Positions 13,563 through 48,738 of a DNA stretch of 64,000 nucleotides are shown here, piece after piece. Source of the DNA: Methanosarcina barkeri 3. GTDB lineage: Archaea; Halobacteriota; Methanosarcinia; Methanosarcinales; Methanosarcinaceae. Where the stretch lies: contig NZ_CP009517.1 in assembly GCF_000970305.1 (NCBI RefSeq), positions 434,001 to 498,000 of the forward strand, read 5' to 3'. Made by a program: the position numbers and the translations under genes. Under the pieces are notes generated by a model. The model saw only the letters and a list, made by a program, of their open reading frames with translations, ran no database searches and had not been told where the DNA came from. The stretch's first letter is position 1. The number at the start of each line of letters is the position of its first letter.

Positions 13563-16500
13563 TCAATTTTCTGAAAGACTTGCTTTATTCAAAAAATAAA
13601 TCATTTCATTAGGCATGAGAGTTAGTTCCTCATTTTTGATTCCTGTCTGTACAAGCTTTTCGATTCGTTCCTTTGTGTTTTTACGTGTGGTTTTTATCCC
13701 TAGCACTCTAGAAGTCTGGACAATAAGATCTTCAAGAGGAGTTGAGTACTGGTTATATAGCACAAAACGGATAGCTTCTTTTATTTCCTCGTCACAGATC
13801 CACTCGATTTTTGCAGATTCTTCTCCCTCACGCCTGCGCAGAAGGCAGGCAGGTTTTGAAACCGGCCAGTAGAACTCACCTTTGACCCTGATTTTTCCAG
13901 AACTTTCGGCAAGAGCTGCAACATCAACTATGCGCTGCTTGATTTTTCCGAGCATACGGGAAACTCCTGTATCCGATTTTATTCGCTGCTGCAGGAGTTG
14001 CGCGTGAATGGGACCTTCACACGCTACAATTCGCAGAATTGCCTCTTCAAGCTGCTTATCCGAAACCTCAGAAAGATCACTGGTTTTCGTAAGTCCTGAG
14101 GAAAGACAGGCCTGGTAAAGAGGTACGGAAGCTTCAAGTGAACTGATTTTCCCGGACAGCTTTTCATCCTCTTTTTTTGAATTATCCGGTTCAGACTTTT
14201 CTCCTGGAATTTCCAGGATTTCGACAATTCCAGGCCCTGTATTACAGGCTCTGAGTTCTAAGGAGCTTCCGATACCAGGTTTTTTAGAGAATTTTCCTGT
14301 TTTTTCAGTCGGGATTAAAGATAGGGGTGTCTTTGGAGTTCTGGCTTCGGTTTCAAACATATGTCCGAGAGCAGGCTCATTTAACCGGGTTTCAGTTCTC
14401 CTTTTTATGTCGCGCTCAATTGCAGGCTCGGCTTCATGCTCACTTTGAGTTTCTGAGTCCCATGTCCCTGGGTAACTGTTATCTCCATCTGCATAATCCT
14501 CTTCTTCGAATTCCGGCTCGGATTCAAAATAGTTTTCTGAGCCGTAAATGTACGCAAACTCATTAAGTCGCCTGCGTTTTTTCTTCTTTTCACGGACTGC
14601 ACTGAAGTCGATCTCAGGATAAGCCTGATAAAAACTCATTTTTTCAGGTTCTGGCTCAGGTATCAGTTTGGCTTTATTTCCCTTATAGCGGGAATCTACA
14701 CTGAACTTGAGGATCTTTGATTTTTTTAATCTTCTTACAGGCTTCTTGCAGGAGTTTTCATCGGCTACCAGAGCCATTGATCTGGCTCTTATATCCATTT
14801 CTGGCAGGAAATCTATATCTGAAGCTGTAAGTCCTTCCTCCAGTTTAAAAACTGGATAAGGCTCTTCAGCTTCGACTTCAAAGGAGGGCTCTGGAAGAAG
14901 TTCAGCATCAAAAGTTTCCGAAAAACAGGCTCTATTATAAAATTGATTTTCAAACTCATCCGCACCTTCGAATTCATCCCCATCTTCGAATTCATCCGCA
15001 CCTTCGAATTCATCTCCATCTTTACTCTCCACACTCATTGCAGGCAAAGCAGGAACCGGGGATAAACCCTGATTTGCAGGATAACTGGAAAATTTTCCGG
15101 AAGGTCTGCCTGCAGGACTTCGGTTCACACACTCAGCCCAGGCAGAAGGATCTTTAATCCTTGAAGTTCCGGATACGATATCGTTTTTTGCCTGCACTTT
15201 TGCCTGTTTTACGGTCATTTTCACAGCCTTAAGCAGCTTTTCCCTGCTCTCTTTCGGATGTAAGTACCAGTCCGTTGACCAGATCCGGTAAATCTTCCAG
15301 CCCAGCTCTTCAAGTACCTGCTGGCGCAGGCGGTCGCGGTCCCGTGCGACATGCAGGGAATAATAGCTTGCTCCATCGCACTCAATTCCAAGCAAGTACC
15401 TCCCTGGATGGGATGGGTCAGGGACTGCAAGGTCAAGTTTGTAACCCGCACAGCCGATATGCCTGTGGACTTCGCAGCCGTTTTCTGCCAGGAAATCGTA
15501 AACTGCCTCTTCAAAAGGTGAACCGAGTTTTTCTCTGAGGTATGCAGGTAAGGGAAGCCTGCCGCTCTCTGCAAACTCAAGGAAGGCTTTAAAGGCCCGA
15601 AGCCCGAAAGGTGAGTTTTCATCCAGTTTCAGGTCCCTTGATGTAAAATTTGCAAAAACAACGCATTTTTCCCTGGCCCTTGTAATAAGAACATTCAGAC
15701 GCCTTTCTCCTCCATCACGATTAAGAGGGCCGAAGTTAAGTGAAAGCTTTCGGTTGCCGTCAAAGCCAAAACCTACACTCAACAATATAATGTCCCTTTC
15801 ATCGCCCTGGATGGTCTCAAGATTCTTAACAAAGAAGTGTTCACCTTTTCCGTTTCCAGAATTAAGATCAAGTCCAGGATTTTCTTTAAGTAGAGCCTCA
15901 ATTTCTTTCTGAATAGCTTCCTGCTGCTTTATATTGAAAGTCCCGACACCAAGGCTTTTATCAGGATATCTGCTCAATTGTTCAAAAACTGCCCTTGCAA
16001 CAGCTCTTGCCTCTACCCGGTTTACCCCACTTTTGCCTCTATCATAAAACGCATCCGGAAGATGTATAAATTTCAGCCCGAGCTTTTCGTCTTTTTGCAT
16101 GGGAGAGGGATAAACATAGAGACGGTTATCATAAAACTCCTGGTTTGAGATTGCAATCAGGGACTCATGCCTGCTCCTGTAGTGCCAGCGCAGGGTCTTT
16201 ACCGGAAAACTGCGTTTGCACACATTCAGGATACTCTCCATATCCCCGGCTGTAACACAGTCATCAGGCTCACTTTCCGGAGAATCAAGTATGGTATCAA
16301 AAAATTCGGTTGGGGGAAGTTGTTTTGAATCCCCCATTACCACGACCTGCTTTCCGCGCAGGAGAGCTCCAACTGCATCTTCGGGTCTGACCTGGCTGGC
16401 TTCATCAAAAATAATCACATCAAAACGGGTGCTTCTGGGATCAAGGTACTGGGCAATGGAGAGTGGACTCATCAGGAAACATGGCTTGATTTTTTGGATC

Positions 16501-19301
16501 AGGTCGCCTGCCTTTTTCATAAGGGTACGGATAGGCATATGTCCCCTCTTCCTGTTGAACTCATTAAGCAAAATGCCCGCTTCCGAGGCTCTTGACGCGC
16601 CTGAGGCCAATTTTGGGGTTTCTTTATAAGCCGAACATGTTATCCTTTTTCTGTTTTCCAGAAGGACCTTTTTGTCAAGTTTTCTGAACTTGTCAAGTTT
16701 GCCTTCGTGGAGTTCCCGGATAAAAGTTGAAAGTGCAGGTCTCTCTCTGAAGGCGTGATTCAGCAGGCTCTCTGCGTAGTTGCCTTCAAAAGCAGGAATT
16801 GCATCACAAACTTCGAGTTTTTCGGATTCAAGGTCTTCAATTATCAGGGCTGCCTTTGTTTCCAGACAGGCCTGCCTGTAACCAAGATACTGGCTCCATA
16901 GCACCAGGGAAGATGTCTCGTTTTTCCAGCTGGTTACCTGGGTTTTTAACGAATTTAGATTTGCAGTTTCCAGGCCTTTTGGATACATTTTTCCAAAATC
17001 TGCACCTATGCGAGTTCCAACTCTTTTAAATGCTTCCAGAAACTCCTGCGTTGCGGTCAGTACATGATCGGCTGCAGACTCGATGGTCAGGCTGTCAATT
17101 CCGGTTTCTAAAAGTCTGAAACTCCTATCTGTGAGGGTGCCTTCTTTCAAGTACTGCCGGAAAAGAATTGTCCATTGGCTGTACTCGTCCAATAGGGCAG
17201 GATCGCTTTCAAAACCTTTCCAGTAATCTCCAAAGTACTTCTTCCCTTCTGTACCTGAACTTTCAAGTTCAAGCCTGAGAGTTTTATATTCGGAAAGGCT
17301 GTTCAGGTCAAGCAGGATTTTACTATCCCAGAAAGGCACTCTTGAGATATAACAGGCTGAAATCTCTTTTTTGAGCTTCCTATACTTCGGATTTAAAAGT
17401 TTGAGAAGACTACCGGAAAGCTCCTCGAACTCAGGGGTATCAAGGTTGTAGATCTCAGGGCGAAAAGTTTTGTCCACAAAAGTTTTGAGCTCAAGGTATT
17501 TTCTGAGTTTCGAAACCAGAGCTTCGGATTCGATTTTTGAGTTCTCGGGATCCCATCTCGAATTCTGAAGAATTTTCTCAGGCAAGGGTTTTGAGTTTCC
17601 GAGGAATTTTGCAGCATTAATTACATTTGCAATTCCCTCGAGAGTATTGGGCTTTGAGGTTGCGGAAAGGTCATTAAGGGTTTTCATAGCTGCTTCGAGG
17701 GCCTCAGAAGCTGTAGCGCATTCGTCTGTAAAAGTTTCGATTTCTCCCAGATCCGAGGGCAGTACAAGCCCTGGATTGCAGCCGTACCACAGGTTTTCCC
17801 GGATAGGCCCAAGAAAAGGAAGTATCTGGCTTAATTTTTCCAGAACAGCTTCTGCATTGGCCCAGGCTTCAGGATCCCAGTTTTCAGGTTCTTGAAATTT
17901 ATATAAGGGCATTTTCAGGCCTTTTGATTCAAAATAGGCCTTTGTCTTTTCCCTTATACCATAGAGAGTATAGACACTTGGGTAGATTTTTCCAGCAGGT
18001 TCTCCAAGGGACAGTGCATACTGGTTAAGCTCATGTTTTAGCTTTTCGAGTTCATTGATGTCCCTGTCAGGACGTACTGGGGCAGGAGCTTCGCGGTTCA
18101 GGGTCTTTTCCAGTTCTTCAAGTACGGCTTTTTTACGGGTCTGGTTGCTGTGAATCTCCAGGCAGAGTTCTCCAAGGCCGGCAGAGTCCAGCCTGCTTTT
18201 TACAACCTGAAGGGCAGCCATTTTTTCACTTACGAAAAGTACGCTTTTCCCCTGAGCTATAAGTTCTGCAATTGTATTTGCAATCGTCTGGGACTTGCCG
18301 GTTCCTGGAGGCCCTTCAACAACAAGGTTTTTTCCGGCTTTCACATCTTCAATGACTGCAATTTGGGAAGAATCGGCATCCATTATCTGGTAAGTGTCCT
18401 TTGCTGGAAGTTTCAGGTCAACTTCTTCTTCCAGGAAACCGGAAACCTCATATTTGGGATCTTCAGGATTGAAGACTTTTTGGATCAATGGATGGTCGGC
18501 AGGAGATATATCTTCAGGCCAGGTTGCAGGGTCCAGATCCTTATACATAACAAATTTCTTAAAATTAAAAAGATCAAGGCAGATCTCAGGCAGGAGCTTC
18601 CAGTCTCTCTTTCCATGGATTTCTCTGGATACAGCCCTGAAATATCCTTCGACTCCTGCAGCATCTTCAGGCATTTCAAATTCAGGAAGCTCGATTCCAA
18701 CCTCTTTAATTTTTGCCTGGAGAGTAATTGAAGTGAAAATTTCGTCTCCTGTCCACTGTATACTGAAAATTCGGCCTTTTCCTATGCGTTTGAGTTCAAC
18801 GGGAATAAGAAGCAGAGGGGCTTTCGTGACTTTTATAGCCGATCTGCTGTCGCTCCACTGCAAAAAGCCCAGCGCAAGATAGAGCACAGGATATCCCTGT
18901 TCTTCAAATATGGAGTTTGCCTGGTTAAAAACATAAAAAAGCTTTTTATCAAGGATCTCGCTATCATCTGGGGTTTCCAGAAAAGTTTCGGAGCGGGAAG
19001 TCTGAGGTTTATCTTCCGAGACAAGAATATTTCCTATTGTTTTCAAAAGCCGTTTTTCCTTTTCTGAGGCTTCATCTTCAACCTCATTTTCAGGTTTTCT
19101 GCCTTTTTTTAACTGGGCTGTTGCCCTGAACCTCATTGATTTTTCCTGAAGAACAAAGAGCGCGTAAATTTCCTCTGGCTTCCTACCTGTAATCGAGATG
19201 GTCCTCTTCTGGGAAGGGCGGTAATTGAGAAGATTATTTCGAAGGGACAGATCAAGCAAATTCTGCCTAAGGGTTTCCAATTCCTTAACTACGTCTACCA
19301 T
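13563..19301 (-). CDS. Giant superfamily 1 helicase with DUF4011, nuclease and DUF3320 domains
   Basis: About 1912 residues. An N-terminal DUF4011-like region (to about residue 300) is followed by an SF1 helicase of the COG1112 type: Walker A EGPPGTGKSQT at about 330, DEAD-like VIIFDEASQVRPEDA at about 965, MGDSKQLPPT just after, and RLNVLITRAREKC near 1220. A Vsr/MTES_1575-like PD-(D/E)XK domain follows (about 1270-1370; KLDLAVPD, GIECDG), then a long acidic linker with tandem DEFEGA/DEFEDG units (about 1445-1470), and a C-terminal DUF3320-like domain. ATG 19301 is preferred to GTG 19316. It is monocistronic. Similar proteins are common in defence islands, so a role in degrading foreign nucleic acid is plausible but not shown. 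Confidence 0.88.
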   Translation of the reverse strand: MVDVVKELETLRQNLLDLSLRNNLLNYRPSQKRTISITGRKPEEIYALFVLQEKSMRFRATAQLKKGRKPENEVEDEASEKEKRLLKTIGNILVSEDKPQTSRSETFLETPDDSEILDKKLFYVFNQANSIFEEQGYPVLYLALGFLQWSDSRSAIKVTKAPLLLIPVELKRIGKGRIFSIQWTGDEIFTSITLQAKIKEVGIELPEFEMPEDAAGVEGYFRAVSREIHGKRDWKLLPEICLDLFNFKKFVMYKDLDPATWPEDISPADHPLIQKVFNPEDPKYEVSGFLEEEVDLKLPAKDTYQIMDADSSQIAVIEDVKAGKNLVVEGPPGTGKSQTIANTIAELIAQGKSVLFVSEKMAALQVVKSRLDSAGLGELCLEIHSNQTRKKAVLEELEKTLNREAPAPVRPDRDINELEKLKHELNQYALSLGEPAGKIYPSVYTLYGIREKTKAYFESKGLKMPLYKFQEPENWDPEAWANAEAVLEKLSQILPFLGPIRENLWYGCNPGLVLPSDLGEIETFTDECATASEALEAAMKTLNDLSATSKPNTLEGIANVINAAKFLGNSKPLPEKILQNSRWDPENSKIESEALVSKLRKYLELKTFVDKTFRPEIYNLDTPEFEELSGSLLKLLNPKYRKLKKEISACYISRVPFWDSKILLDLNSLSEYKTLRLELESSGTEGKKYFGDYWKGFESDPALLDEYSQWTILFRQYLKEGTLTDRSFRLLETGIDSLTIESAADHVLTATQEFLEAFKRVGTRIGADFGKMYPKGLETANLNSLKTQVTSWKNETSSLVLWSQYLGYRQACLETKAALIIEDLESEKLEVCDAIPAFEGNYAESLLNHAFRERPALSTFIRELHEGKLDKFRKLDKKVLLENRKRITCSAYKETPKLASGASRASEAGILLNEFNRKRGHMPIRTLMKKAGDLIQKIKPCFLMSPLSIAQYLDPRSTRFDVIIFDEASQVRPEDAVGALLRGKQVVVMGDSKQLPPTEFFDTILDSPESEPDDCVTAGDMESILNVCKRSFPVKTLRWHYRSRHESLIAISNQEFYDNRLYVYPSPMQKDEKLGLKFIHLPDAFYDRGKSGVNRVEARAVARAVFEQLSRYPDKSLGVGTFNIKQQEAIQKEIEALLKENPGLDLNSGNGKGEHFFVKNLETIQGDERDIILLSVGFGFDGNRKLSLNFGPLNRDGGERRLNVLITRAREKCVVFANFTSRDLKLDENSPFGLRAFKAFLEFAESGRLPLPAYLREKLGSPFEEAVYDFLAENGCEVHRHIGCAGYKLDLAVPDPSHPGRYLLGIECDGASYYSLHVARDRDRLRQQVLEELGWKIYRIWSTDWYLHPKESREKLLKAVKMTVKQAKVQAKNDIVSGTSRIKDPSAWAECVNRSPAGRPSGKFSSYPANQGLSPVPALPAMSVESKDGDEFEGADEFEDGDEFEGADEFENQFYNRACFSETFDAELLPEPSFEVEAEEPYPVFKLEEGLTASDIDFLPEMDIRARSMALVADENSCKKPVRRLKKSKILKFSVDSRYKGNKAKLIPEPEPEKMSFYQAYPEIDFSAVREKKKKRRRLNEFAYIYGSENYFESEPEFEEEDYADGDNSYPGTWDSETQSEHEAEPAIERDIKRRTETRLNEPALGHMFETEARTPKTPLSLIPTEKTGKFSKKPGIGSSLELRACNTGPGIVEILEIPGEKSEPDNSKKEDEKLSGKISSLEASVPLYQACLSSGLTKTSDLSEVSDKQLEEAILRIVACEGPIHAQLLQQRIKSDTGVSRMLGKIKQRIVDVAALAESSGKIRVKGEFYWPVSKPACLLRRREGEESAKIEWICDEEIKEAIRFVLYNQYSTPLEDLIVQTSRVLGIKTTRKNTKERIEKLVQTGIKNEELTLMPNEMIYFLNKASLSEN

Positions 19302-19598
19302 AAGAATACCAGGCACTTTTGAAACAATTAGTGAAATATATGAAACATTTAAGACTAATAGAACAAAGATTACTTATTAATAAATTTTATTCTTTCCAGC
19401 CGGAAACAGAGCTATGAATAAAGAAAAAAATACAACCCGGATGGCAGAGAGATCTTTTAAGGATGACTTACTTAAGAATAACATCTTTAAGAATCTTTTT
19501 TTGTTATATTTGAAAACTATTTCTCTACTATTAGAGCCTTTCTAAAAATTACGATTATTCTTATTTTCGTTATATTTCAGCCTTCTTGGGTGAAACTG

Positions 19599-33097: not shown

Positions 33098-33994
33098 ATG
33101 GATAGTAGCCATCCTTTTAAAATTATCTCGGAAACAGATGACTCTGATATCGATCGTTATCGAACACTATCCATCGTTAAGTATAAAACCGACTCTCCTT
33201 TTGATTTTGATGAGATTATATATAAATTTTCGAAGAACAAATTAAATATCACCAAAGAATTCGGTTGTGTTTACACTAAACCATACGGAGATCACGTTTC
33301 TGCACTGTTTGGCAAATTGGGCAACAAAACTTTAACTGGGTTACTCACAGATTATGAAGATAATCCAGTATTAAGACGGTATAACCTTTCAAATGTAATC
33401 TTGGCTACTATGTATGTGGATCACTTTCCTGAAGATAATAAACTCACTTTATTGGTCTTTAATGGGGGAAAGATAAGTAAGAATCTGTGGCATGCTCCGT
33501 ATAACAATTTGTTCAATGTACTCGATTTAACCCCTACTAAATTTAGTGAGAAAGAACTTCGGAAATTATGTATAAATAAATATGTAGACGGACTTTCTGA
33601 GATTCGATTTGATCCTGCGAGTGAAGAAGAATTTGGTAATGTTAAAACAGCAGAGTACACATCAATCCGTTCTAAGAAACTCAATCCAAAAGCAGAAAAA
33701 ATAAAAGAGATTATAGAAAACGATGAAATTAAAGTCAACATGTTCAAATCAGAAATCTGGGCTACATACGAAAATCTCGATAAAAGCTATCCGGTGGCTT
33801 TTACTATCGATATTGATGGAAAGGTCACATTAGAGTTCCCTCGAATTTCTTGGTCATCTTTAAATGATGATTATGATATCGAAGAGCACTATTATTCTTT
33901 TGCGAGAAAAATTTATGACGAAATCGTATCCAAAGAAATTTATATAAATGAAAAGGACGAAGACAAATCACAAAAATCGCTTTTTGATTTCTGA
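33098..33994 (+). CDS. Unknown protein A of a two-gene accessory operon
   Basis: Not recognised. 298 residues, soluble, acidic, with alternating beta-strand-like and helical segments. Visible stretches include GCVYTKPYGDHVSALFGKLG (about 52-71), ILATMYVDHFPEDNKLTLLV (about 101-120) and FTIDIDGKVTLEFPRISWSS (about 235-254). It ends in QKSLFDF (292-298), which matches the archaeal PCNA-interacting (PIP) pattern Q-x-x-L-x-x-F at the extreme C-terminus. The next gene starts eight bases after the stop and shares its low GC, so the two form an operon. A role in DNA-associated defence or maintenance is inference from position, base composition and the PIP-like tail. Confidence 0.65.
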   Translation: MDSSHPFKIISETDDSDIDRYRTLSIVKYKTDSPFDFDEIIYKFSKNKLNITKEFGCVYTKPYGDHVSALFGKLGNKTLTGLLTDYEDNPVLRRYNLSNVILATMYVDHFPEDNKLTLLVFNGGKISKNLWHAPYNNLFNVLDLTPTKFSEKELRKLCINKYVDGLSEIRFDPASEEEFGNVKTAEYTSIRSKKLNPKAEKIKEIIENDEIKVNMFKSEIWATYENLDKSYPVAFTIDIDGKVTLEFPRISWSSLNDDYDIEEHYYSFARKIYDEIVSKEIYINEKDEDKSQKSLFDF

Positions 33995-34002
33995 GGGTTG
34001 AA

Positions 34003-35382
34003 ATGATTGAATCAGATTTTAAGGATTTTTTTCAAAAGCTCGCAAACAAAGCTTACACAAGATCCGATCTGAGAACTGTATTAGTTACAGCTAATTCACT
34101 ATTAGCATCAAATTTTGGAGATAGTAATTTAAAAAATCAATTATTCATATCTTCTATTGATTTGGCCAAAAAAGATATCGAACTGTATGTTCGAATTATG
34201 AATTCTTGTATAGAGAATTCTTTATACTGTATGAATTACCTGTTCTTACATAGTTCTATCTTTTTAATTGACCAAAAGTATGCAGGCGATATTTCTTTAA
34301 TATATAAAAATCATCCACGAATATTTTACAATTTAATTTCAATTATATTAAAAAATGAAATTTTAGATGAAATAGACATTATTGACTCGTGTGATCCAGA
34401 GCTTGTATTTGGTAAAGATCCAAGAATCAATGTTCCTTATAAAATGCTTACTCAATTCGAAGATAAAATATTTGAAATTTTGAATAAAAAATATACTCAG
34501 AAATTAATTGATAGCGAATACGATCTAGAATCTGATGATTTAGATACTTATATAACGAAACTAGATATTGTATATACTACATTTGGAAAATGTATTTCTT
34601 TTACTTCTGAGAATTACTGTTATTCAAAAGATAATAGTCAAAAACACTTCCGAAACCTTTTTTCTCCTCTTGAGTATGATGAAAAAATGCGTGATCGCGG
34701 AGTTCTACTTTTTCCACGGATTTCTGAGATTAATATAATTGATAATAAAGTAATTATTAGTAATAACGGTTTTGGGAATCTATGCAACTGTACTTTTACA
34801 ATATTATATCAAGAAAATAAAGAAATTTTACATAACGAAAATTTTGGAATTTTATCTAGGAATAATTATCCTGCTTATATAGACACAATTAAAAAAAAAC
34901 TGCTCGAATTGCCTGGGCATCACCATTTAGAGTTTAGATTTGATTTTAAAAAGTTTAATCGCAAGTATTTCTTCTTATTTATTAAGAGAATTGGCCCAAT
35001 AGCTGATGAATTAAAAAATTCAGGAGATTTTTCTGTGAGTTATTATGACATGCGTAATTATGGGAAGATTGGGAATATGGCTATTGATTCTAAAGATGTG
35101 AAACAAAGTGTTGTAACTATGGATTTTCAAGAACTTCGAGATATTTTTAATGAGTTAGCTAATCTTATTGATGAATCTGATATTGAAATACAAAACAAAG
35201 ATGAAGTGAAAACTAACATTAATGAAGGAATTAAAGAAACTTATAATGAAAAAATGAGCTTTTCAAAAATTGCAAAGATATCTGAGAATTTAATAAAGTT
35301 GATAGATCCTGTTAGTAAAGCCTACCCCGTAGCTGTAAAAGTAAAGGATTTTGTATGGAATTACATTCAGAATAACATGTAA
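34003..35382 (+). CDS. Unknown protein B of a two-gene accessory operon
   Basis: Not recognised. 459 residues, very Asn/Ile/Lys-rich. The first 150 residues look all-helical (repeat-like ISSIDLAKKDIELYVRIM), a middle part is beta-rich (RISEINIIDNKVIISNNGFG, about 243-262, Ig-like in pattern), and the last 50 residues (SKIAKISENLIKLIDPVSKA ... VKDFVWNYIQNN) form an amphipathic helical tail like those closing many effector-associated proteins in bacterial conflict systems. GAGGG overlapping the previous stop serves ATG 34003. No catalytic motif is visible. It probably acts with protein A, perhaps as sensor or adaptor. Confidence 0.6.
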   Translation: MIESDFKDFFQKLANKAYTRSDLRTVLVTANSLLASNFGDSNLKNQLFISSIDLAKKDIELYVRIMNSCIENSLYCMNYLFLHSSIFLIDQKYAGDISLIYKNHPRIFYNLISIILKNEILDEIDIIDSCDPELVFGKDPRINVPYKMLTQFEDKIFEILNKKYTQKLIDSEYDLESDDLDTYITKLDIVYTTFGKCISFTSENYCYSKDNSQKHFRNLFSPLEYDEKMRDRGVLLFPRISEINIIDNKVIISNNGFGNLCNCTFTILYQENKEILHNENFGILSRNNYPAYIDTIKKKLLELPGHHHLEFRFDFKKFNRKYFFLFIKRIGPIADELKNSGDFSVSYYDMRNYGKIGNMAIDSKDVKQSVVTMDFQELRDIFNELANLIDESDIEIQNKDEVKTNINEGIKETYNEKMSFSKIAKISENLIKLIDPVSKAYPVAVKVKDFVWNYIQNNM

Positions 35383-40099: not shown

Positions 40100-40590
40100 T
40101 TACACTTCATCCAGGTATCTCTGCAGCTTATCCGCAAGTTTGCCAATATGAATGCCATCAACAAATGCATGATGAACCTGGACTGCAAACGGCATCATAA
40201 ATTTATCTTCCCTTTCCTGATATTTTCCCCAGTCAAATATGGGCTGCGCTTTTTCCCTGTTTCCGAAATCCGTGTGCGAAATATGCGTAAATGTTATCCA
40301 CGGCAAGGCTGAGAATTGATATACATCGTTTTCTACAGGCCTTGTAAAACGCTCTTTTTGATTTTCTGCCGTTACGGTTGCCAGTTGTACAAACTTCTCA
40401 ATCGTATCCTGCATGGGAACATTTACAACCTTAAATAATTCCGTTTCTTTATCCAGATATGTAAATGAGGTATCAATGGACTCATATAACACAACTTCAC
40501 CATCAAGAAAACGATACCGAAATTCCTCGATTTCATTTGCGCATTTCGTAACGGTAAATATAAACGCCATCGTAAATGACCAGTTATTTT
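40100..40590 (-). pseudogene. 5'-truncated chloramphenicol acetyltransferase copy
   Basis: From 40570 down, 156 residues match the last 157 of the intact CAT at 48010-48639 almost exactly, including the active-site QVHHAFVDGIH. The similarity goes on upstream only to VKENNWSFT (about 40596), where the sequence switches to an unrelated frame (LVFLNWH) and soon meets a TAG. The N-terminal 50 or so residues are missing. About 80 bases of 3' flank (AAAGTAAAAATTA..GTGAACT-like) are also shared with the intact copy, so the duplicated unit was larger than the gene. Confidence 0.85.
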
Positions 40591-40943
40591 CTTTAACGTG
40601 CCAATTTAAAAAGACCAGTTCTTTAGGTCTGTAGCTTTTCTAGCTTTGCAAATACAGGAAAATGCTTTCCAATGGGTTTATAGGACTATGAAAACAAGAA
40701 GAAAACGTTTCATGTAAATAAAAGGTTTGGAGCCACTTTAATTCAGAATCTAGCTTGGTCACTCTTCTCTTGTATCATTTTGTTTATTTTTTGTATAAGA
40801 AATTTAAAAGGCTGAGTAATAATTTTATAACTAAATACGAAAATGTACCATGGTTATTGTGAGGGTAATACCAATACAAATCTATTTATGTAAATGTTGT
40901 ATATAACAGTAAATGTGCTGAATTTGCGAAGGGGGATTCTATA
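40591..40943. other. Junction and leader of the zeta-like module
   Basis: Next to the CAT remnant, the minus strand encodes YKPIGKHFPVFAKLEKLQT followed by a stop (about 40630-40690), which looks like the C-terminus of another decayed gene. The rest is AT-rich. GGGGGA at 40931-40936 is the ribosome site of the following gene. Confidence 0.4.
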
Positions 40944-41177
40944 ATGCCAATAATAAATAAAAGACAAAGAAATGAAATAAGACAATGTAAAGCTATTGCA
41001 AGGATCGCAAAAACAGCCTCAAGCAACGCGAGAAAAAATGCATTTAGTCACGGAAGGTCGGTAACTATACAGCAAGGCGAAGCCATTGTCAAGATGCATC
41101 CAGATGGAAGAACTGAAATTATTCGAAAAATCGAAAACAGTTCAGTAATTCCAGAAAAAAGACGATACTATCTATGA
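40944..41177 (+). CDS. Antitoxin-like protein of a zeta-type module
   Basis: A 77-residue basic protein (MPIINKRQRNEIRQCKAIAR ... FSHGRSVTIQQGEAIVKMHPDGRTEII). The C-terminal half resembles the small genes placed directly upstream of zeta-like ATPase toxins in many bacteria. Its stop overlaps the start of the kinase by four bases (ATGA). A strong GGGGGA ribosome site lies eight bases upstream. It is probably the antitoxin; direct family evidence is limited. Confidence 0.65.
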   Translation: MPIINKRQRNEIRQCKAIARIAKTASSNARKNAFSHGRSVTIQQGEAIVKMHPDGRTEIIRKIENSSVIPEKRRYYL

Positions 41178-41893
41178 AACGCATGAGAGTATTTGCAGGT
41201 CCAAACGGGTCTGGTAAAACAACGCTAGTTAATCAGTTTATCAAAGAAAGAAGTAAATTGATTAATCCTAATCGTCACATAAATCCTGATGATCTTAATT
41301 TAATCAATGTGCTTAATTTCAACGACTTTGGATTAAAAGTTGATGAAAACAATTTTCAAGATTTTATATCTCAGTCTCCATTTTACAACAAATGCAACAT
41401 TGACACCAAAAATATCAAAATTAATGATAATTGTTTTAATATAACAAACAGAAGTTCATATATGGGTGCAATGTTGGCTGATTATTTACGGCATTGTTAT
41501 ATTAACTCAAAAGAAACATTATTCTCATATGAGACTGTTCTTTCACATTCATCAAAAGTAGATTTTCTCAAAAACGCAAAAAACTGTGAATGGCAAGTAT
41601 ATTTATATTTTGTAAGCACGGTAGATTCTTACATCAATTACGGTCGTGTGGAAGAGAGAGTGTTAAATGGGGGACATGATGTTCCTACTGACAAAATCCA
41701 AGATCGGTATATACGATCACATGAGAATTTATTTACCGCTTTACAACATTGTAGAAGAGCATACATCTTTGATAATTCAACACAACAAATGCAATTAATC
41801 GCTGAAAAAAAGCCAGATAATTCATTGACGTTGTCAAATGAAAATTCTATCCCAGCATGGTTAGATGAATGTGTGTTATCAAAAATTAAATGA
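41174..41893 (+). CDS. Zeta-toxin-like P-loop kinase
   Basis: A 239-residue P-loop protein with Walker A GPNGSGKTT at residues 9-17, right after the N-terminal strand MRVFAG. Like zeta toxins and related AAA_33/COG4185 proteins it has an acidic substrate region, SKETLFSYETVLSH (about 113-126; the ETxxS pattern), and an Arg-rich lid (GRVEERVLNGGHDVPTDKI, about 156-175, with RYIRS). Zeta toxins phosphorylate UDP-N-acetylglucosamine or related sugars. With the 77-residue gene it forms a toxin-antitoxin operon; the target in an archaeon without murein is not obvious. Confidence 0.78.
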   Translation: MKRMRVFAGPNGSGKTTLVNQFIKERSKLINPNRHINPDDLNLINVLNFNDFGLKVDENNFQDFISQSPFYNKCNIDTKNIKINDNCFNITNRSSYMGAMLADYLRHCYINSKETLFSYETVLSHSSKVDFLKNAKNCEWQVYLYFVSTVDSYINYGRVEERVLNGGHDVPTDKIQDRYIRSHENLFTALQHCRRAYIFDNSTQQMQLIAEKKPDNSLTLSNENSIPAWLDECVLSKIK

Positions 41894-42282
41894 ACGATTA
41901 ACCATCAAATCCTTTAAGCCCCTTTACACACTCCCTAACACAAAAAGTTATCATCAGAAGCGCCACCTGGATTTTTCTCTATGACTTCTGGCAAGAGCTT
42001 CATATCAATTTACTGTTTTCCTCGATTAAGCTAGCTATGAAGTGGACCGCTTGCTTATACACCTTGTTTAGTTTTTCGATCTGGTCAAGCAAAACGGCAA
42101 AATCCCCTACAACTGGCTGCTTCCCAATTTTCAGAAGTGCACCTGAGATTTTTTGAGTCCGTTGCTTGTCTTTCCTTGGTGAGCTTTCAAAAAAACATTT
42201 TTAATTTCAAATATGGGATAACTTTTTATATTTTTTTAGTCAATTTATATATAGCCCTATGCTAGAATTTTAGGAGATATCG
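41894..42282. other. Gap containing an rsgA fragment
   Basis: No intact gene. It holds the 70-bp rsgA-like fragment (42081-42150). TTTTTATATTTTTTTAG near 42222 and AGGAGATAT at 42272-42280 belong to the promoter and ribosome site of the next gene. Confidence 0.5.
42081..42150 (-). pseudogene. 70-bp fragment of rsgA
   Basis: This stretch matches rsgA positions 32637-32706 at 66 of 70 bases, same strand. Ends are sharp: CTGGTCAAGC on one side and CACCTGAGATT on the other. It corresponds to roughly residues 61-84 ([19 protein letters not shown]). It is far too short to be functional; it shows that DNA from the rsgA region, 9.4 kb away, or from another rsgA copy, was inserted here. Confidence 0.9.
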
Positions 42283-43104
42283 ATGGTGACACGTAAATCA
42301 AATTATAGATACTATAATAAGCGGAGACCATACAGAGCTTCTAAACAAAGAATCTTGAACACAGATAAGCTTGTAATCGCGCTTATATGCTTATGTTTTA
42401 TTTTCCTGATTTTGAAAGAAATTATTCAGATGATTGTTACATATTATTATGTATTCATACCACTTGCTTTGATATCTTTAATTGTCTGTTATATAACGAA
42501 TAATAGGTTACAGTCATTTCAATGTAAAGGTCCTTTTAAAGATAAGGAAATTATGAGTATGGAATCTACTGATTCAGAAAAAAATCCCGAAAATTGTTAT
42601 CATTCAGAAGAACAGCTATCACCAGATGCTTATCAAAATGAGCTTAATGTCGAATCTGAGAATGTAGAAAAAGGAAATAAATTTGAAAGATATGTTGTTG
42701 ATAAATTTGATGACAAACTTTTTTCTATAGTAGAATGGACTACGGATATGTGCAGAAAGCATAATCGCTACGTAGAGTCAGATTGCAATCCGGATTTGGT
42801 GATCAGAGATAGAACAACAAATGAAACTTTTTGTGTTGAATGCAAATATAGATCTCGTCTGGTAAATGGATTTTTTAATTGGTCATATCCAGACCAGATA
42901 GACAGATACTTTTCTTATTCTCATGATAGGAAAATTCCGTTTTATGTAGTTTTGGGTTTAGGAGGAAATCCAGATTCTCCGATAGAAGTATTTTGTGTAC
43001 CCCTCGAAGAAGCTAAAAATTCACAAATTCACATAGATATGCTCAGGAAATATTATCACGATCTAGAGAAAGATTTCATCTGGAAAAATGGGGTTTTAAA
43101 GTAA
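42283..43104 (+). CDS. Membrane-anchored PD-(D/E)XK nuclease-like protein
   Basis: A 273-residue protein. A basic N-terminus (YYNKRRPYRASKQR) is followed by two membrane helices (about 29-47 and 51-72), an acidic linker (about 90-128) and a restriction-endonuclease-like domain (about 130-260). The catalytic pattern is visible: Glu135 (GNKFERYV), Asp171 (CNPDLVI) and Glu186-x-Lys188 (FCVECKYR). The closest described kinds are Mrr/NERD-like nucleases tethered to the membrane. AGGAGATATCG precedes ATG 42283. It has toxin-antitoxin modules on both sides. A role in clearing incoming DNA at the membrane is inferred. Confidence 0.75.
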   Translation: MVTRKSNYRYYNKRRPYRASKQRILNTDKLVIALICLCFIFLILKEIIQMIVTYYYVFIPLALISLIVCYITNNRLQSFQCKGPFKDKEIMSMESTDSEKNPENCYHSEEQLSPDAYQNELNVESENVEKGNKFERYVVDKFDDKLFSIVEWTTDMCRKHNRYVESDCNPDLVIRDRTTNETFCVECKYRSRLVNGFFNWSYPDQIDRYFSYSHDRKIPFYVVLGLGGNPDSPIEVFCVPLEEAKNSQIHIDMLRKYYHDLEKDFIWKNGVLK

Positions 43105-43163
43105 TATATTATCTCAATTATTATTGAAATCTTGAAATTTACCTAATCTTACATTGGAGATTC

Positions 43164-43181
43164 ACCGATGGTTTCATCGGT
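43164..43181 (+). terminator. Hairpin with T-rich tail after the nuclease gene
   Basis: ACCGATG and CATCGGT form a 7-bp perfect stem with loop GTTT, followed by TTCTTTAG. It is about 60 bases past the nuclease stop. Likely the transcript end. Confidence 0.55.
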
Positions 43182-43328
43182 TTCTTTAGTATGCATTTAT
43201 CCATTTTTAGTTTCATGACTTAATAAACACCATACTTTGCCGCCGCCTTAGGAATATACTTGTTTTCAATATTTGGTAACATTGATTGCCTAAATTAGTA
43301 TAAAGAGGAAGTTAAGCCGGAGCTTGAG

Positions 43329-43344: not shown

Positions 43345-43653
43345 TTTCTTTCAAAAATTAGTTTGTTTGTGTCTTTCTAGTGAGAAAAAGAGTTCTGTTG
43401 ATTTATTTCCCAAATCTTTTCTATGACATATATTCAAATCTTGATATGGTTATGAAAAGGAAATAATTAAGTACATTAATAAAGAGACCAACAACTTATT
43501 AGTATCAAAATTTATTGTAAAACTTATAGTATATAAATTAATTAGATATCGGAAAAACAGATTGTATATTCTCCTAAATGTTATAAGTTATTTATTCTTG
43601 AAAGTATTTTACCTTCAATAATTTGCACAATAACAGACACGACATTGATTTTT

Positions 43654-43989
43654 ATGTCAAATGGCGATTCTTATACGGTTAAAGACGCTCTTGATTATCT
43701 GTCAAAGATTGAGATAAATAATCTCCATACGACTTATCACTTTAATATAAGGACAGATGAACGTAAGAGTGATATACCAGATGCAAATGGAGTAGTAAAT
43801 ATTATTCTCAATGATACTCCATGTGGTATATTCAAACTATCAGAAGGTAAATTTAAATTAATCTATAATCTCAACCATGATGATGATTTTGTGGTTATTA
43901 TAAGCATAAAGAATTCGGATCCAGTTAGAATTAATTTAGTAAGTTGCTTCCCTGATGAAGCCAAAAAGCGGAGGAGAGAAGATGTCTAG
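43654..43989 (+). CDS. DUF4258-like protein, probable toxin
   Basis: A 111-residue protein from ATG 43654 (MSNGDSYTVKDALDYLSKIE). The pattern YHFNIRTDERKSDIPD, then beta strands KFKLIYNLNHDDDFVVIISI and a final strand INLVSCFPDE, recalls DUF4258/RelE-fold proteins. Its stop overlaps the following DUF2283-like gene by eight bases, in the order expected for a toxin-antitoxin operon with the toxin first. The family call is from pattern and context, not a database search. Confidence 0.55.
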   Translation: MSNGDSYTVKDALDYLSKIEINNLHTTYHFNIRTDERKSDIPDANGVVNIILNDTPCGIFKLSEGKFKLIYNLNHDDDFVVIISIKNSDPVRINLVSCFPDEAKKRRREDV

Positions 43990-44353
43990 GGGGATTGAAC
44001 TTAGTAAATATGACTATGACTTGGAAAACGATAGTGCTTTCTTTTATGGTACTGGTAAAAAGTACAAGAAATCTATGGATTTAGATGGTATAATACTTGA
44101 TATGAGCGAAGACGGTTGCGTAATGGCTATTGAGATACTGGATGCATCAAAGAAATTTAACGTTTTAAAAGCAGATTTACAAAGTTTAAAAAGTTTTGAT
44201 GCCAATATTGAAGTTCATAAAGAAACTATCAAAATAGCTATGAAAATTACTATAGTTAAAAGAAACAACTCAATTAGTAAATGTATGGAAGCAGTTGGAT
44301 TAAATAGTATGAACCTTCCGATCAGCAATCAAGAAATTGCATTATGTTGCTAA
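43982..44353 (+). CDS. DUF2283-like protein, probable antitoxin
   Basis: A 123-residue protein whose first half follows DUF2283: YDYDLENDSAFFYGTGKKYK, then DLDGIILDMSEDG and MAIEILDASKKF, where the usual text is D-x-x-G-x-x-x-GIEILDAS. The second half (NIEVHKETIKIAMKITIVKR) is an extension. GGAGGAGAGAAG directly before ATG 43982 is a strong ribosome site inside the end of the upstream gene, giving translational coupling. DUF2283 proteins commonly accompany DUF4258 partners. Confidence 0.7.
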   Translation: MSRGIELSKYDYDLENDSAFFYGTGKKYKKSMDLDGIILDMSEDGCVMAIEILDASKKFNVLKADLQSLKSFDANIEVHKETIKIAMKITIVKRNNSISKCMEAVGLNSMNLPISNQEIALCC

Positions 44354-44395: not shown

Positions 44396-44660
44396 AAACG
44401 TATGTACAAGATTCTCTCTACAGGTCCTTTAAAATGTTCTTTTTGATTTTCTGCCGTTACGGTTGCCAGTTATATAAACTTCTCAATCGTGTCCTGCATG
44501 GGAACATTTACTACCTTAAATAATTCCGTTTCTTTATCCAGATATGTAAATGAAGTATCAATGGACTCGTATAACACAACTTCACCATCAAGAAAACGAT
44601 ACCGAAATTCCTCGATCTCATTTGCACATTTCGTAACGGCAAATATAAACGCCATCCTCC
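44396..44660 (-). pseudogene. Internal fragment of chloramphenicol acetyltransferase
   Basis: Residues from MAFIFAVTKCANEIEEFRYR to about QKEHFKGPVE of CAT, nearly identical to the intact copy at 48010. A CAA-to-TAA change near 44470 truncates the frame after DTIEKFI. The upstream frame (GRKKSVSKFSGTTRDLDW) and the sequence past 44396 are unrelated, so both ends of the gene are missing. Confidence 0.85.
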
Positions 44661-44846: not shown

Positions 44847-45125
44847 ATGGCAGAGACATTAAATTCTGATAAGGTAAAACCTTCTCCAACTCTCAATACT
44901 ATTATAATGGTAGAAGATACTCTACAAAACTCTCCAGATAGTGTTATAACGATTCCGGAACTCAAAAAAGCACTTCCACGCCAGGTAAACCATAATACTT
45001 TAATGATTATTTTAGAATATCTTGAAAAAAGTAATAAAATAGTTGTAGGGTTAAGAGGGATAACGTGGATTCACAACACAAACAAGAATTTAAGAAATGT
45101 TGCGGTTTACGGACGTGAGCTCTAA
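44847..45125 (+). CDS. Winged-helix antitoxin-like protein
   Basis: A 92-residue protein with a winged-helix DNA-binding pattern: SVITIPELKKALPRQVNHNT (helix 2 to recognition helix), LMIILEYLEKSNKIVVGLRG and ITWIHN (wing). It lies 14 bases upstream of a RelE-like toxin and would act as antitoxin and autoregulator. GGAAGTGA precedes ATG 44847. Confidence 0.7.
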   Translation: MAETLNSDKVKPSPTLNTIIMVEDTLQNSPDSVITIPELKKALPRQVNHNTLMIILEYLEKSNKIVVGLRGITWIHNTNKNLRNVAVYGREL

Positions 45126-45139
45126 AGTGTGAATAAGCT

Positions 45140-45490
45140 ATGAAGCGTGTAAGTGTAAGATTAACTCCTGAAGCTGAGAAAATATATGAATCTCTTATAA
45201 GTAAGGCTTCGCACTCAAAGCAGGAGGAGACAATTCTTAATGCTTTTCATCAAAAAATAGAGTTAATAAAAAACGATGTTCATTATGGAAATCCAGTTGC
45301 TAAAAGATTAATTCCTTCTGAATATAAAACTAAATATGAAGTAAAGAACCTGTTTAGAGTAGAACTTCCCGGTTTCTGGAGAATGCTTTACACACTTACA
45401 ACTGGTAATCCGGATATTGACACTCTCGTAATAGTGATTGATATAATTGATCATAAAAAATACGATAAAGTATTTGGTTACAAGAGGTGA
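45140..45490 (+). CDS. RelE/ParE-superfamily toxin
   Basis: A 116-residue protein. After an N-terminal helical part (RLTPEAEKIYESLISKASHS) come the RelE-fold strands: NPVAKRLIPSEYKTKYEVKN, LFRVELPGFWRMLYTLTTGN and TLVIVIDIIDHKKYDKVFGY. The string LFRVELPGFWRMLY is the R-x-x-x-PGFWRLLY pattern of archaeal RelE-like toxins, with the HKxYDKxFGY end. Paired with the winged-helix protein upstream. Probably an mRNA interferase. Confidence 0.8.
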   Translation: MKRVSVRLTPEAEKIYESLISKASHSKQEETILNAFHQKIELIKNDVHYGNPVAKRLIPSEYKTKYEVKNLFRVELPGFWRMLYTLTTGNPDIDTLVIVIDIIDHKKYDKVFGYKR

Positions 45491-45536
45491 ATTTTTCCTT
45501 CACTTTTCCTTTGTCTTTACTTTTCCTTGAATCTAA

Positions 45537-45590
45537 CATCCGTGTACTAAATATGCGTAAACGTTATCCACGGCAGGGTACAGAATTTGT
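45537..45590 (-). pseudogene. Short fragment of chloramphenicol acetyltransferase
   Basis: ATCCGTGTACTAAATATGCG and GTTATCCACGGCAGGG match the CAT segment at 48178-48230 (encoding the region SALPWITFTHISHTD) with several changes. It is more diverged than the other fragments, and no flanking CAT sequence is left. Confidence 0.65.
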
Positions 45591-48009: not shown

Positions 48010-48639
48010 CTACACTTCATCCAGGTATCTCTGCAGCTTATCCGCAAGTTTACCAATATGAATGCCATCAACAAATGCATGATGAACCTGGACTGCAAAC
48101 GGCATCATAAATTTATCTTCCCTTTCCTGATATTTTCCCCAGTCAAATATGGGCTGCGCTTTTTCCCTGTTTCCGAAATCCGTGTGCGAAATATGCGTAA
48201 ATGTTATCCACGGCAAGGCTGAGAATTGATATACATCATTTTCTACAGGTCCTGTAAAATGTTCTTTTTGATTTTCTGCCGTTACGGTTGCCAGTTGTAT
48301 AAACTTCTCAATCGTGTCCTGCATGGGAACATTTACTACCTTAAATAATTCCGTTTCTTTATCCAGATATGTAAATGAGGTATCAATGGACTCATATAAC
48401 ACAACTTCACCATCAAGAAAACGATACCGAAATTCCTCGATTTCATTTGCGCATTTCGTAACGGCAAATATAAACGCCATCGTAAATGACCAGTTGTTTT
48501 CTTTAACACGCTTCTTAAAGTTCGTCACATCAAGTTCAAAACTTACGCAATATTGAGGTTGTACTGCATTCCTGTATATTTGACAATAATCTTTTCTTTT
48601 CCATGTTTCAAAATCTATTGTTTGGTATCTGTTTCCCAT
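48010..48639 (-). CDS. cat: Chloramphenicol acetyltransferase (intact copy)
   Basis: A type A CAT of 209 residues from ATG 48639 (MGNRYQTIDFETWKRKDYCQ), with GAAGG eight bases upstream; the frame extends six codons to a TTG that is not needed. It acetylates the 3-hydroxyl of chloramphenicol in family members. The active-site motif QVHHAFVDGIH has the catalytic His187 and Asp191. Other markers are YCVSFELDVTNFKKRVKENN and LPWITFTHISH. CATs are bacterial, so this is a probable transfer, perhaps from Firmicutes. Three fragments of the same gene lie upstream at 40100, 44396 and 45537. Confidence 0.92.
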   Translation of the reverse strand: MGNRYQTIDFETWKRKDYCQIYRNAVQPQYCVSFELDVTNFKKRVKENNWSFTMAFIFAVTKCANEIEEFRYRFLDGEVVLYESIDTSFTYLDKETELFKVVNVPMQDTIEKFIQLATVTAENQKEHFTGPVENDVYQFSALPWITFTHISHTDFGNREKAQPIFDWGKYQEREDKFMMPFAVQVHHAFVDGIHIGKLADKLQRYLDEV

Positions 48640-48738
48640 GTTTATGCCTTCGTTCAATACAATCTACTTTACGGTATATTTTCTTTTTTAGTTTCAAGAC
48701 CCAGGCAGGGATCTGTTAATAGAATACATAATGACACT

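Follow-up and report, generated by a model that had tools for sequence, protein, structure and literature searches.

What would a nuclease tied to the membrane of an archaeon cut there? The question is raised by a single intact gene, an open reading frame (ORF) of 273 aa with an ATG start at 42283-43104 (+) of the window, by which we mean the whole 64,000-nucleotide stretch of Methanosarcina barkeri 3 DNA that was analysed. The gene is the sole copy in its 4.56-Mb Methanosarcina genome, and the closest named relative of its product, from Methanosarcina sp. UBA289, shows 79% identity in the best segment. A literature search, conducted mostly without subscription papers, found no paper on this nuclease family. 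It is near certain that the product is a membrane-anchored protein with a PD-(D/E)XK domain. For its biological role we tentatively propose, by analogy with SNIPE, an accessory DNase of entry-stage defence or superinfection exclusion.

Gene layout, membrane segments and nuclease domain

The features of the gene and its protein are:

42244..42253, +, TATA-like stretch read by eye, putative promoter of the gene's own
42273..42276, +, GGAG ribosome-binding site just 5' of the ATG, read by eye
42283..43104, +, whole coding sequence of the membrane-anchored PD-(D/E)XK nuclease, 273 aa
42283..42366, +, basic N-terminus, residues 1-28, expected to be cytoplasmic (positive-inside)
42370..42426, +, hydrophobic segment 1, residues 30-48 (Kyte-Doolittle)
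42433..42489, +, hydrophobic segment 2, residues 51-69, with conserved TYYY at 53-56 (Kyte-Doolittle)
42514..42654, +, drifting linker, residues 78-124 (dN/dS about 1 against the sister copy)
42655..43101, +, PD-(D/E)XK nuclease domain, residues 125-273 (alignment, domain model and fold searches)
42685..42687, +, catalytic Glu135, motif I (63/64 aligned members, one gap)
42793..42795, +, catalytic Asp171, motif II, after Pro170 (each 64/64)
42838..42846, +, catalytic Glu186-Cys-Lys188, motif III (E 61/64, K 61/64)
42895..42909, +, Gln205-x3-Tyr209 motif (Q 57/64, Y 64/64), presumably the RecB/YqaJ-like QxxxY

The gene had been described as a single one, and this agrees with the wide gaps on its two sides, where the nearest ORFs are about 390 bp (upstream) and 540 bp (downstream) away. 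Given the ribosome-binding site and the TATA-like stretch, it can, as far as such signals indicate, form its own transcription unit.

Two membrane helices had also been proposed. Two hydrophobic segments are indeed present, with a mean hydropathy of 2.91 for residues 30-48 and of 2.22 for residues 51-69 (Kyte-Doolittle, 19-residue window). We infer that residues 30-69 form a two-helix hairpin, given how long the hydrophobic stretch is and that the Q49/T53-Y56 turn is conserved; hydropathy and the basic N-terminus together predict an N-terminal anchor with a cytoplasmic nuclease. The full-length single-sequence AlphaFold model draws residues 21-77 as one continuous helix, but it is poor outside the helices (mean pLDDT 51.4) and was therefore left out of the fold search. 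When the hairpin was sought on other effector domains, weak matches only were found beyond five Methanosarcina genomes, at E 0.002 or worse.

We also considered an amphipathic N-terminal helix in the soluble members as a hint of weak membrane contact. The median hydrophobic moment was 0.42 for 20 members (2 of 22 were dropped, the chosen start lying inside the domain) against 0.22 for 225 control ORF starts. The members are related, however, and just 6/22 beat their own shuffles at 0.05, so that this was not counted as evidence.

The collection of homologues covered 185 genomes of the order, of which 63 had a match, 392 genomes of the phylum, of which 56 matched the profile, and viral contigs. 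The alignment of 64 rows draws on 60 retrieved regions, two viral contigs and the window itself; it comprises 43/50 ORFs of a first set, from which 7 short, broken or duplicate pieces were excluded, and 21/21 of a second. The preliminary description had named Glu135, Asp171 and Glu186-x-Lys188 as the active site. These residues stand at those positions and are kept in 63, 64, 61 and 61 of the 64 members. Selection on the gene is uneven. Measured against the open piece of the sister copy in G160, the domain (81 codons) has a dN/dS of 0.036, the linker one of 1.06 and residues 1-77 one of 0.60; against a second copy (L033) the values in this order are 0.15, 0.40 and 0.44. The nuclease domain is thus under strong purifying selection while the hairpin anchor and the linker drift, and since the domain stands at 0.036 against 0.60 and 1.06 we judge the observed residue conservation to be well beyond chance.

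An AlphaFold model of the domain, built with five aligned rows, has the restriction-endonuclease core fold (pLDDT 76, pTM 0.75). Counted from residue 121 of the protein, the first helix of the model carries E15 and the third strand both E66 and K68, while D51 immediately precedes the second strand and the helix after the third strand contains Q85 and Y89. This is the arrangement to be expected of the fold. Foldseek returned Archaeoglobus Hjc at E 8.5e-06. With VIA-align, the best solved match listed was archaeal Hjc (2eo0_A, Z 12.7, rmsd 2.3 over 116 aligned residues), and the matches listed also include SPARDA (9qcc_Y, Z 11.2), a RecU-type enzyme (10.6) and I-Ssp6803I (10.1). RecU-like and Hjc-like phage proteins were among the matches when the domain model was compared with viral models. 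Absence of the restriction-endonuclease fold was the result that should have counted against the first assignment; both searches instead group the model with PD-(D/E)XK enzymes, and the assignment stands on the modelled fold as well as on the conserved active site.

Sequence searches place the protein less sharply. Pfam matched the window protein to YqaJ (PF09588) at 24.1 bits, narrowly over the gathering cut-off of 22, and across 30 members the matches are spread over many PD-(D/E)XK families. Solved structures searched by sequence gave 0 matches with the single window protein and best E-values of 0.48 and 0.27 with profiles A1 and A5, 2eo0 appearing in both (0.48 and 0.91). Kinship with Mrr, NERD or Card1 was considered and dropped, as sequence support lies under cut-off (Mrr_cat_2 14.5 bits against 22; NERD in 1/30 members at E 0.038) and no such structure is among the 50 matches listed. 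PDDEXK_11 and PDDEXK_15 are also under their cut-offs. No CARF sensor domain was matched in the window protein by PADLOC or Pfam, and a CARF_PDDEXK model was touched by 3/30 members at E 0.003 or weaker. PADLOC assigned the window protein to 0 families; the best of the 30 members reached E 0.0014.

In three divergent members (L101 6039-6518, L104 6043-6579 and L105 6008-6598), the catalytic E and K are both replaced by V. By this substitution they are probably inactive relatives kept as genes, so that not every family member would cut.

Spread of the family and its carriers

The hairpin form is found with strong matches in 5/185 genomes of the order, all of the window's genus (G000, G160, G167, G169 and G170). 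Two of these five copies are broken. The G160 copy is frameshifted, and the G170 copy is apparently interrupted by a transposase-like gene, presumably IS256, the link across contigs being inferred. With so few genomes and two broken copies, the hairpin-form nuclease is dispensable. Any match to the window protein is absent from 122/185 genomes of the order.

The tree puts the window protein into a 10-row clade (support 89/87), whose neighbour is a clade made up of 25 soluble rows. A membrane segment is predicted in 7/10 rows of the former and in 0/25 of the latter. The three without a called segment are the interrupted copy (L034), a row under the transmembrane (TM) threshold (L064) and a row with another N-terminus (L041), which looks PH-like by eye and for which Pfam gave nothing. 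A TM segment predicted in L063 was judged an artefact of an upstream start and discarded. Most members of the family are soluble and chromosomal, and N-termini differ among relatives.

Several relatives lie on viruses and other mobile elements. One (L070) follows an integrase at a distance of 106 bp and has a Zot-like ATPase in its vicinity (phrog_197, 1.6e-16). Another (L066) is flanked by two integrases and a P-loop gene and is accompanied by a small virion-protein-like gene (phrog_2186, E 0.0024), and a third (L047) adjoins homologues of the replication-type and virion-like genes of L066. Outside the membrane clade, an integrase adjoins the relative in L058. In L087, a 422-aa protein combining a signal-like segment, a TM segment and the nuclease domain (35% identity) is encoded between a tailed-phage portal (phrog_21, 1.2e-113) and a head maturation protease (phrog_53, 5.9e-107). 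The same protein layout occurs in L072 on an integrase-bearing contig, where the gene adjoins a large ORF that by eye resembles a restriction-methylation enzyme. Moreover, the Riemerella temperate phage RAP44 encodes a soluble relative (gp10; 28% identity to L066, E 7e-9), separated from the integrase by one small gene, and a Methanomethylovorans plasmid carries a relative near transposases. A relative of gp10 in Riemerella phage PT03 (L111 3989-4441) is annotated as a tyrosine recombinase; this name looks wrong, because gp10 carries PD-(D/E)XK-type motifs.

Provirus markers accompany 3/10 rows of the membrane clade and 0/25 soluble rows (Fisher p 0.018), a comparison that is partly circular since the markers were drawn from the same loci. 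None was found at the five hairpin-type loci (the window and L032-L035). The window protein as query gave no match in viral contigs or in phages; L087 and L072 each found only itself in viral contigs, L087 had no match in phages and L072 none in plasmids.

These data bear on what the enzyme does. It could be a membrane-tethered, structure-specific nuclease of repair or chromosome maintenance that cuts branched DNA as Hjc does, in a family that replaces an apparently missing Hjc. The closest solved folds listed are archaeal Hjc, and PF01870 finds no Hjc in the window's own genome and weak partial matches in 16/185 genomes of the order (best E 4.8e-5). Across the phylum, strong Hjc matches (E < 1e-15) occur in 138/392 genomes and the nuclease family in 56/392, the overlap being one genome, G458, which is 9% contaminated. 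This anticorrelation may nevertheless reflect one old, deep clade split, and 199/392 genomes of the phylum have neither enzyme. Together with the 122 genomes of the order that lack a match, this makes the family too patchy to be a general resolvase, and general replacement of Hjc was rejected. A membrane anchor, furthermore, would hardly suit an enzyme of chromosomal junctions, and among the five hairpin copies two are broken. We therefore regard this explanation as unlikely, although the family does point to methanogens that have no clear Hjc resolvase by PF01870 search.

A second explanation, which we hold to be just as improbable, is that the gene is cargo that viruses and mobile elements use for superinfection exclusion or for processing their own DNA, the chromosomal hairpin copies being leftovers with no role for the host. 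The relatives in inovirus-like proviruses, in a tailed-phage head module, in a Riemerella phage and near plasmid transposases all fit, as do the two broken hairpin copies. The low dN/dS of the domain (0.036 and 0.15) shows instead that chromosomal copies have been kept functional, and the window copy has no adjoining provirus marker.

The soluble relatives suggest a third explanation, namely a housekeeping role on RNA or another membrane-linked nucleic acid. The soluble Methanosarcina-type genes lie divergently beside a gene that we take to be PHP phosphoesterase-like in 18/18 loci having it, sometimes in tandem copies, and these 18 loci represent one fixed chromosomal place (an example is L036 5718-7428). 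The closest folds listed are, however, those of DNA enzymes, and the patchy spread and broken copies do not suit such a role, which we consider highly improbable.

The variable region around the gene

The elements found on the two sides of the nuclease gene are:

40944..41177, +, ORF of 77 aa that overlaps the one after it, possibly an antitoxin-like partner (no Pfam family)
41174..41893, +, P-loop protein, zeta-toxin-like under cut-off (Pfam)
42081..42150, 70-bp stretch, 94% identical to the inside of the G160 rsgA and adjoining the nuclease block, probable rearrangement scar
42153..43187, +, block of about 1 kb common to the sister genome G160 (86% identity), in a different place among its neighbours
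43645..43989, +, 114-aa ORF upstream of the DUF2283 gene (ORF list, Pfam)
43955..44353, +, DUF2283 protein (Pfam 41.3 bits, cut-off 23)
44847..45125, +, 92-aa ORF before the ParE-like gene (ORF list, Pfam)
45140..45490, +, ParE-like protein under cut-off (Pfam)

The preliminary description had the gene flanked by toxin-antitoxin modules. Pairs resembling such modules do lie on both sides, but their assignment is weaker than this implied, Zeta_toxin upstream (E 7e-4, 19.5 bits against 22.3) and ParE downstream (E 1.4e-3, 19.6 bits against 23) both falling under the Pfam cut-offs, and the arrangement was seen in this genome only; in the ORF lists (ORFs of at least 75 aa) neither flanking genes of this kind nor a small partner was seen at L032, L033, L034 or L035. 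That the nuclease is itself the toxin of such a system, with the membrane or a neighbour holding it in check, is accordingly the least probable explanation and was set aside, for although the flanking pairs and the possible toxicity of an anchorless form (as for SNIPE, in the accessible part of PMC13190303) speak for it, no adjacent antitoxin gene was seen beside the other hairpin-type copies in the ORF lists and the gene stands well apart from the genes on either side.

The region has been rearranged. In G160 the nuclease block stands on the opposite side of a DEAD-helicase gene, with rsgA and a retron-type reverse transcriptase as its neighbours, and in the window the 70-bp rsgA fragment and rsgA itself are about 9 kb apart (we assume the names DEAD helicase and rsgA from the sequences of these neighbours). 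Judging from the differing position in G160 and the piece of rsgA left behind in the window, the block has changed its place inside a variable region. The reverse transcriptase gene (L032 7591-9309, +; PADLOC RT_III-A 7e-105) stands beside the broken G160 copy.

Other features of the region were also noted. A gene that we take to be chloramphenicol-acetyltransferase-like occurs around the nuclease and the toxin-antitoxin-like genes in one complete copy and three partial ones (40101-40597, 44417-44656, 45521-45587 and 48010-48657), which are probable recombination scars. A 1917-aa helicase-nuclease-like protein at 13563-19316 (-) matches PADLOC PDC-S37 at 1765 bits and Hhe at 1.9e-204, and these matches make it a candidate defence system of a single gene, some 23 kb from the nuclease. 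Finally, two adjacent ORFs of 298 and 459 aa (33098-35382), with no Pfam or PADLOC match at E 0.01, lie close to rsgA, at the place that the reverse transcriptase occupies in the sister genome.

Proposed role and comparison with known systems

We tentatively return to entry-stage defence or superinfection exclusion. The basic N-terminus and the hairpin would anchor the enzyme in the cytoplasmic membrane so that, as predicted, its two ends face the cell interior, and the flexible linker would present the Hjc-like domain, as modelled, to the cytoplasm. There metal binding and DNA cutting would fall to E135, D171, E186 and K188, as in the superfamily. The membrane hold would keep the enzyme off the chromosome and place it where the DNA of viruses or plasmids enters, so that it could act on incoming DNA on the SNIPE principle.

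Several lines of evidence are consistent with this role. The layout is SNIPE-like, with a conserved domain behind a drifting hairpin and linker; the spread is patchy, membrane segments mark one clade (7/10 against 0/25), and relatives ride on genetic parasites. In addition, the catalytic residues are kept, the fold is, among the matches listed, nearest to those of Hjc and SPARDA, and a retron-type reverse transcriptase lies beside the G160 copy. Inoviruses of Methanosarcinaceae have been described, with an excised circular form for Methanolobus profundi, and inovirus genes confer superinfection exclusion in Pseudomonas, according to the accessible part of the report (Roux et al., PMC6813254). 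Against defence, no member has a strong match to a PADLOC defence model, most relatives are soluble, one subclade has lost catalytic residues, the 18 loci beside the PHP-like gene look like those of an ordinary resident gene, and the five hairpin-type loci, a small sample of 5 genomes, carry no provirus marker. An antiviral role of the window nuclease would thus be plausible rather than certain.

A bolder form of this reading, which we find doubtful, is that the family represents an independent second invention of the SNIPE principle, in which an Hjc-fold nuclease with interchangeable anchors cuts DNA entering the archaeal cell and is carried by inovirus-like proviruses and phages against their competitors. 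If so, entry-stage cutting would be a convergent principle that reaches archaea, and the anchor-swapping family would offer natural variants for testing what steers such enzymes.

Among known enzymes, the archaeal Hjc (PF01870; 2eo0, 2wcw, 1gef) has the closest solved fold listed and shares the E ... D ... ExK order, the active site of 1gef being E9, D33, E46 and K48 in the accessible text of PMC1913061. The window protein differs in its low identity (about 16-19%), in having no PF01870 match at E up to 1, in its membrane anchor and linker, and in being encoded by a non-core gene. The nuclease subunit of SPARDA (a short Argonaute system; 9qcc, 9vx6) forms the second-best fold group (Z 11.2), with chain residues 3-148 aligned, which we take to be the DREN domain. 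The SPARDA nuclease is a defence nuclease; the window gene differs in that no Argonaute partner was seen beside it and a membrane anchor is present. With the YqaJ-like viral recombinases (PF09588) the protein shares a score of 24.1 bits against 22 and the Q-x3-Y motif, but just 8/30 members match at E 0.1 or better and no YqaJ or lambda exonuclease structure is among the matches listed. RAP44 encodes a separate YqaJ exonuclease besides gp10. A likeness by description also exists to the 'HJR family' and the virus- and plasmid-associated PD-(D/E)XK arCOGs of archaeal dark-matter islands, which the accessible part of PMC4158269 presents as lineage-specific nucleases linked to mobile elements.

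The comparison with SNIPE is the most instructive for function. SNIPE, a GIY-YIG nuclease bound to the membrane, cuts phage DNA while it is being injected (PMC13190303, accessible part); that a membrane-bound nuclease can cut viral DNA at entry was demonstrated only recently, in E. coli and with another nuclease fold. As far as that text and a review (PMC12904381) describe it, the anchorless form is toxic, and the homologues keep a conserved nuclease behind a variable N-terminus, 59% having one TM segment and 7% two. The window nuclease is PD-(D/E)XK rather than GIY-YIG, has no DUF4041 and is archaeal. Neither GIY-YIG nor DUF4041 appears among its Pfam matches at E up to 1, and because both are absent the gene is, by these matches, not SNIPE. 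What the two have in common is a single gene and a conserved nuclease behind highly variable N-termini with none, one or two TM segments; the N-terminal membrane anchor and cytoplasmic C-terminal nuclease of SNIPE are, for the window protein, a prediction. The window protein may be regarded as a candidate second, archaeal, membrane-bound entry nuclease.
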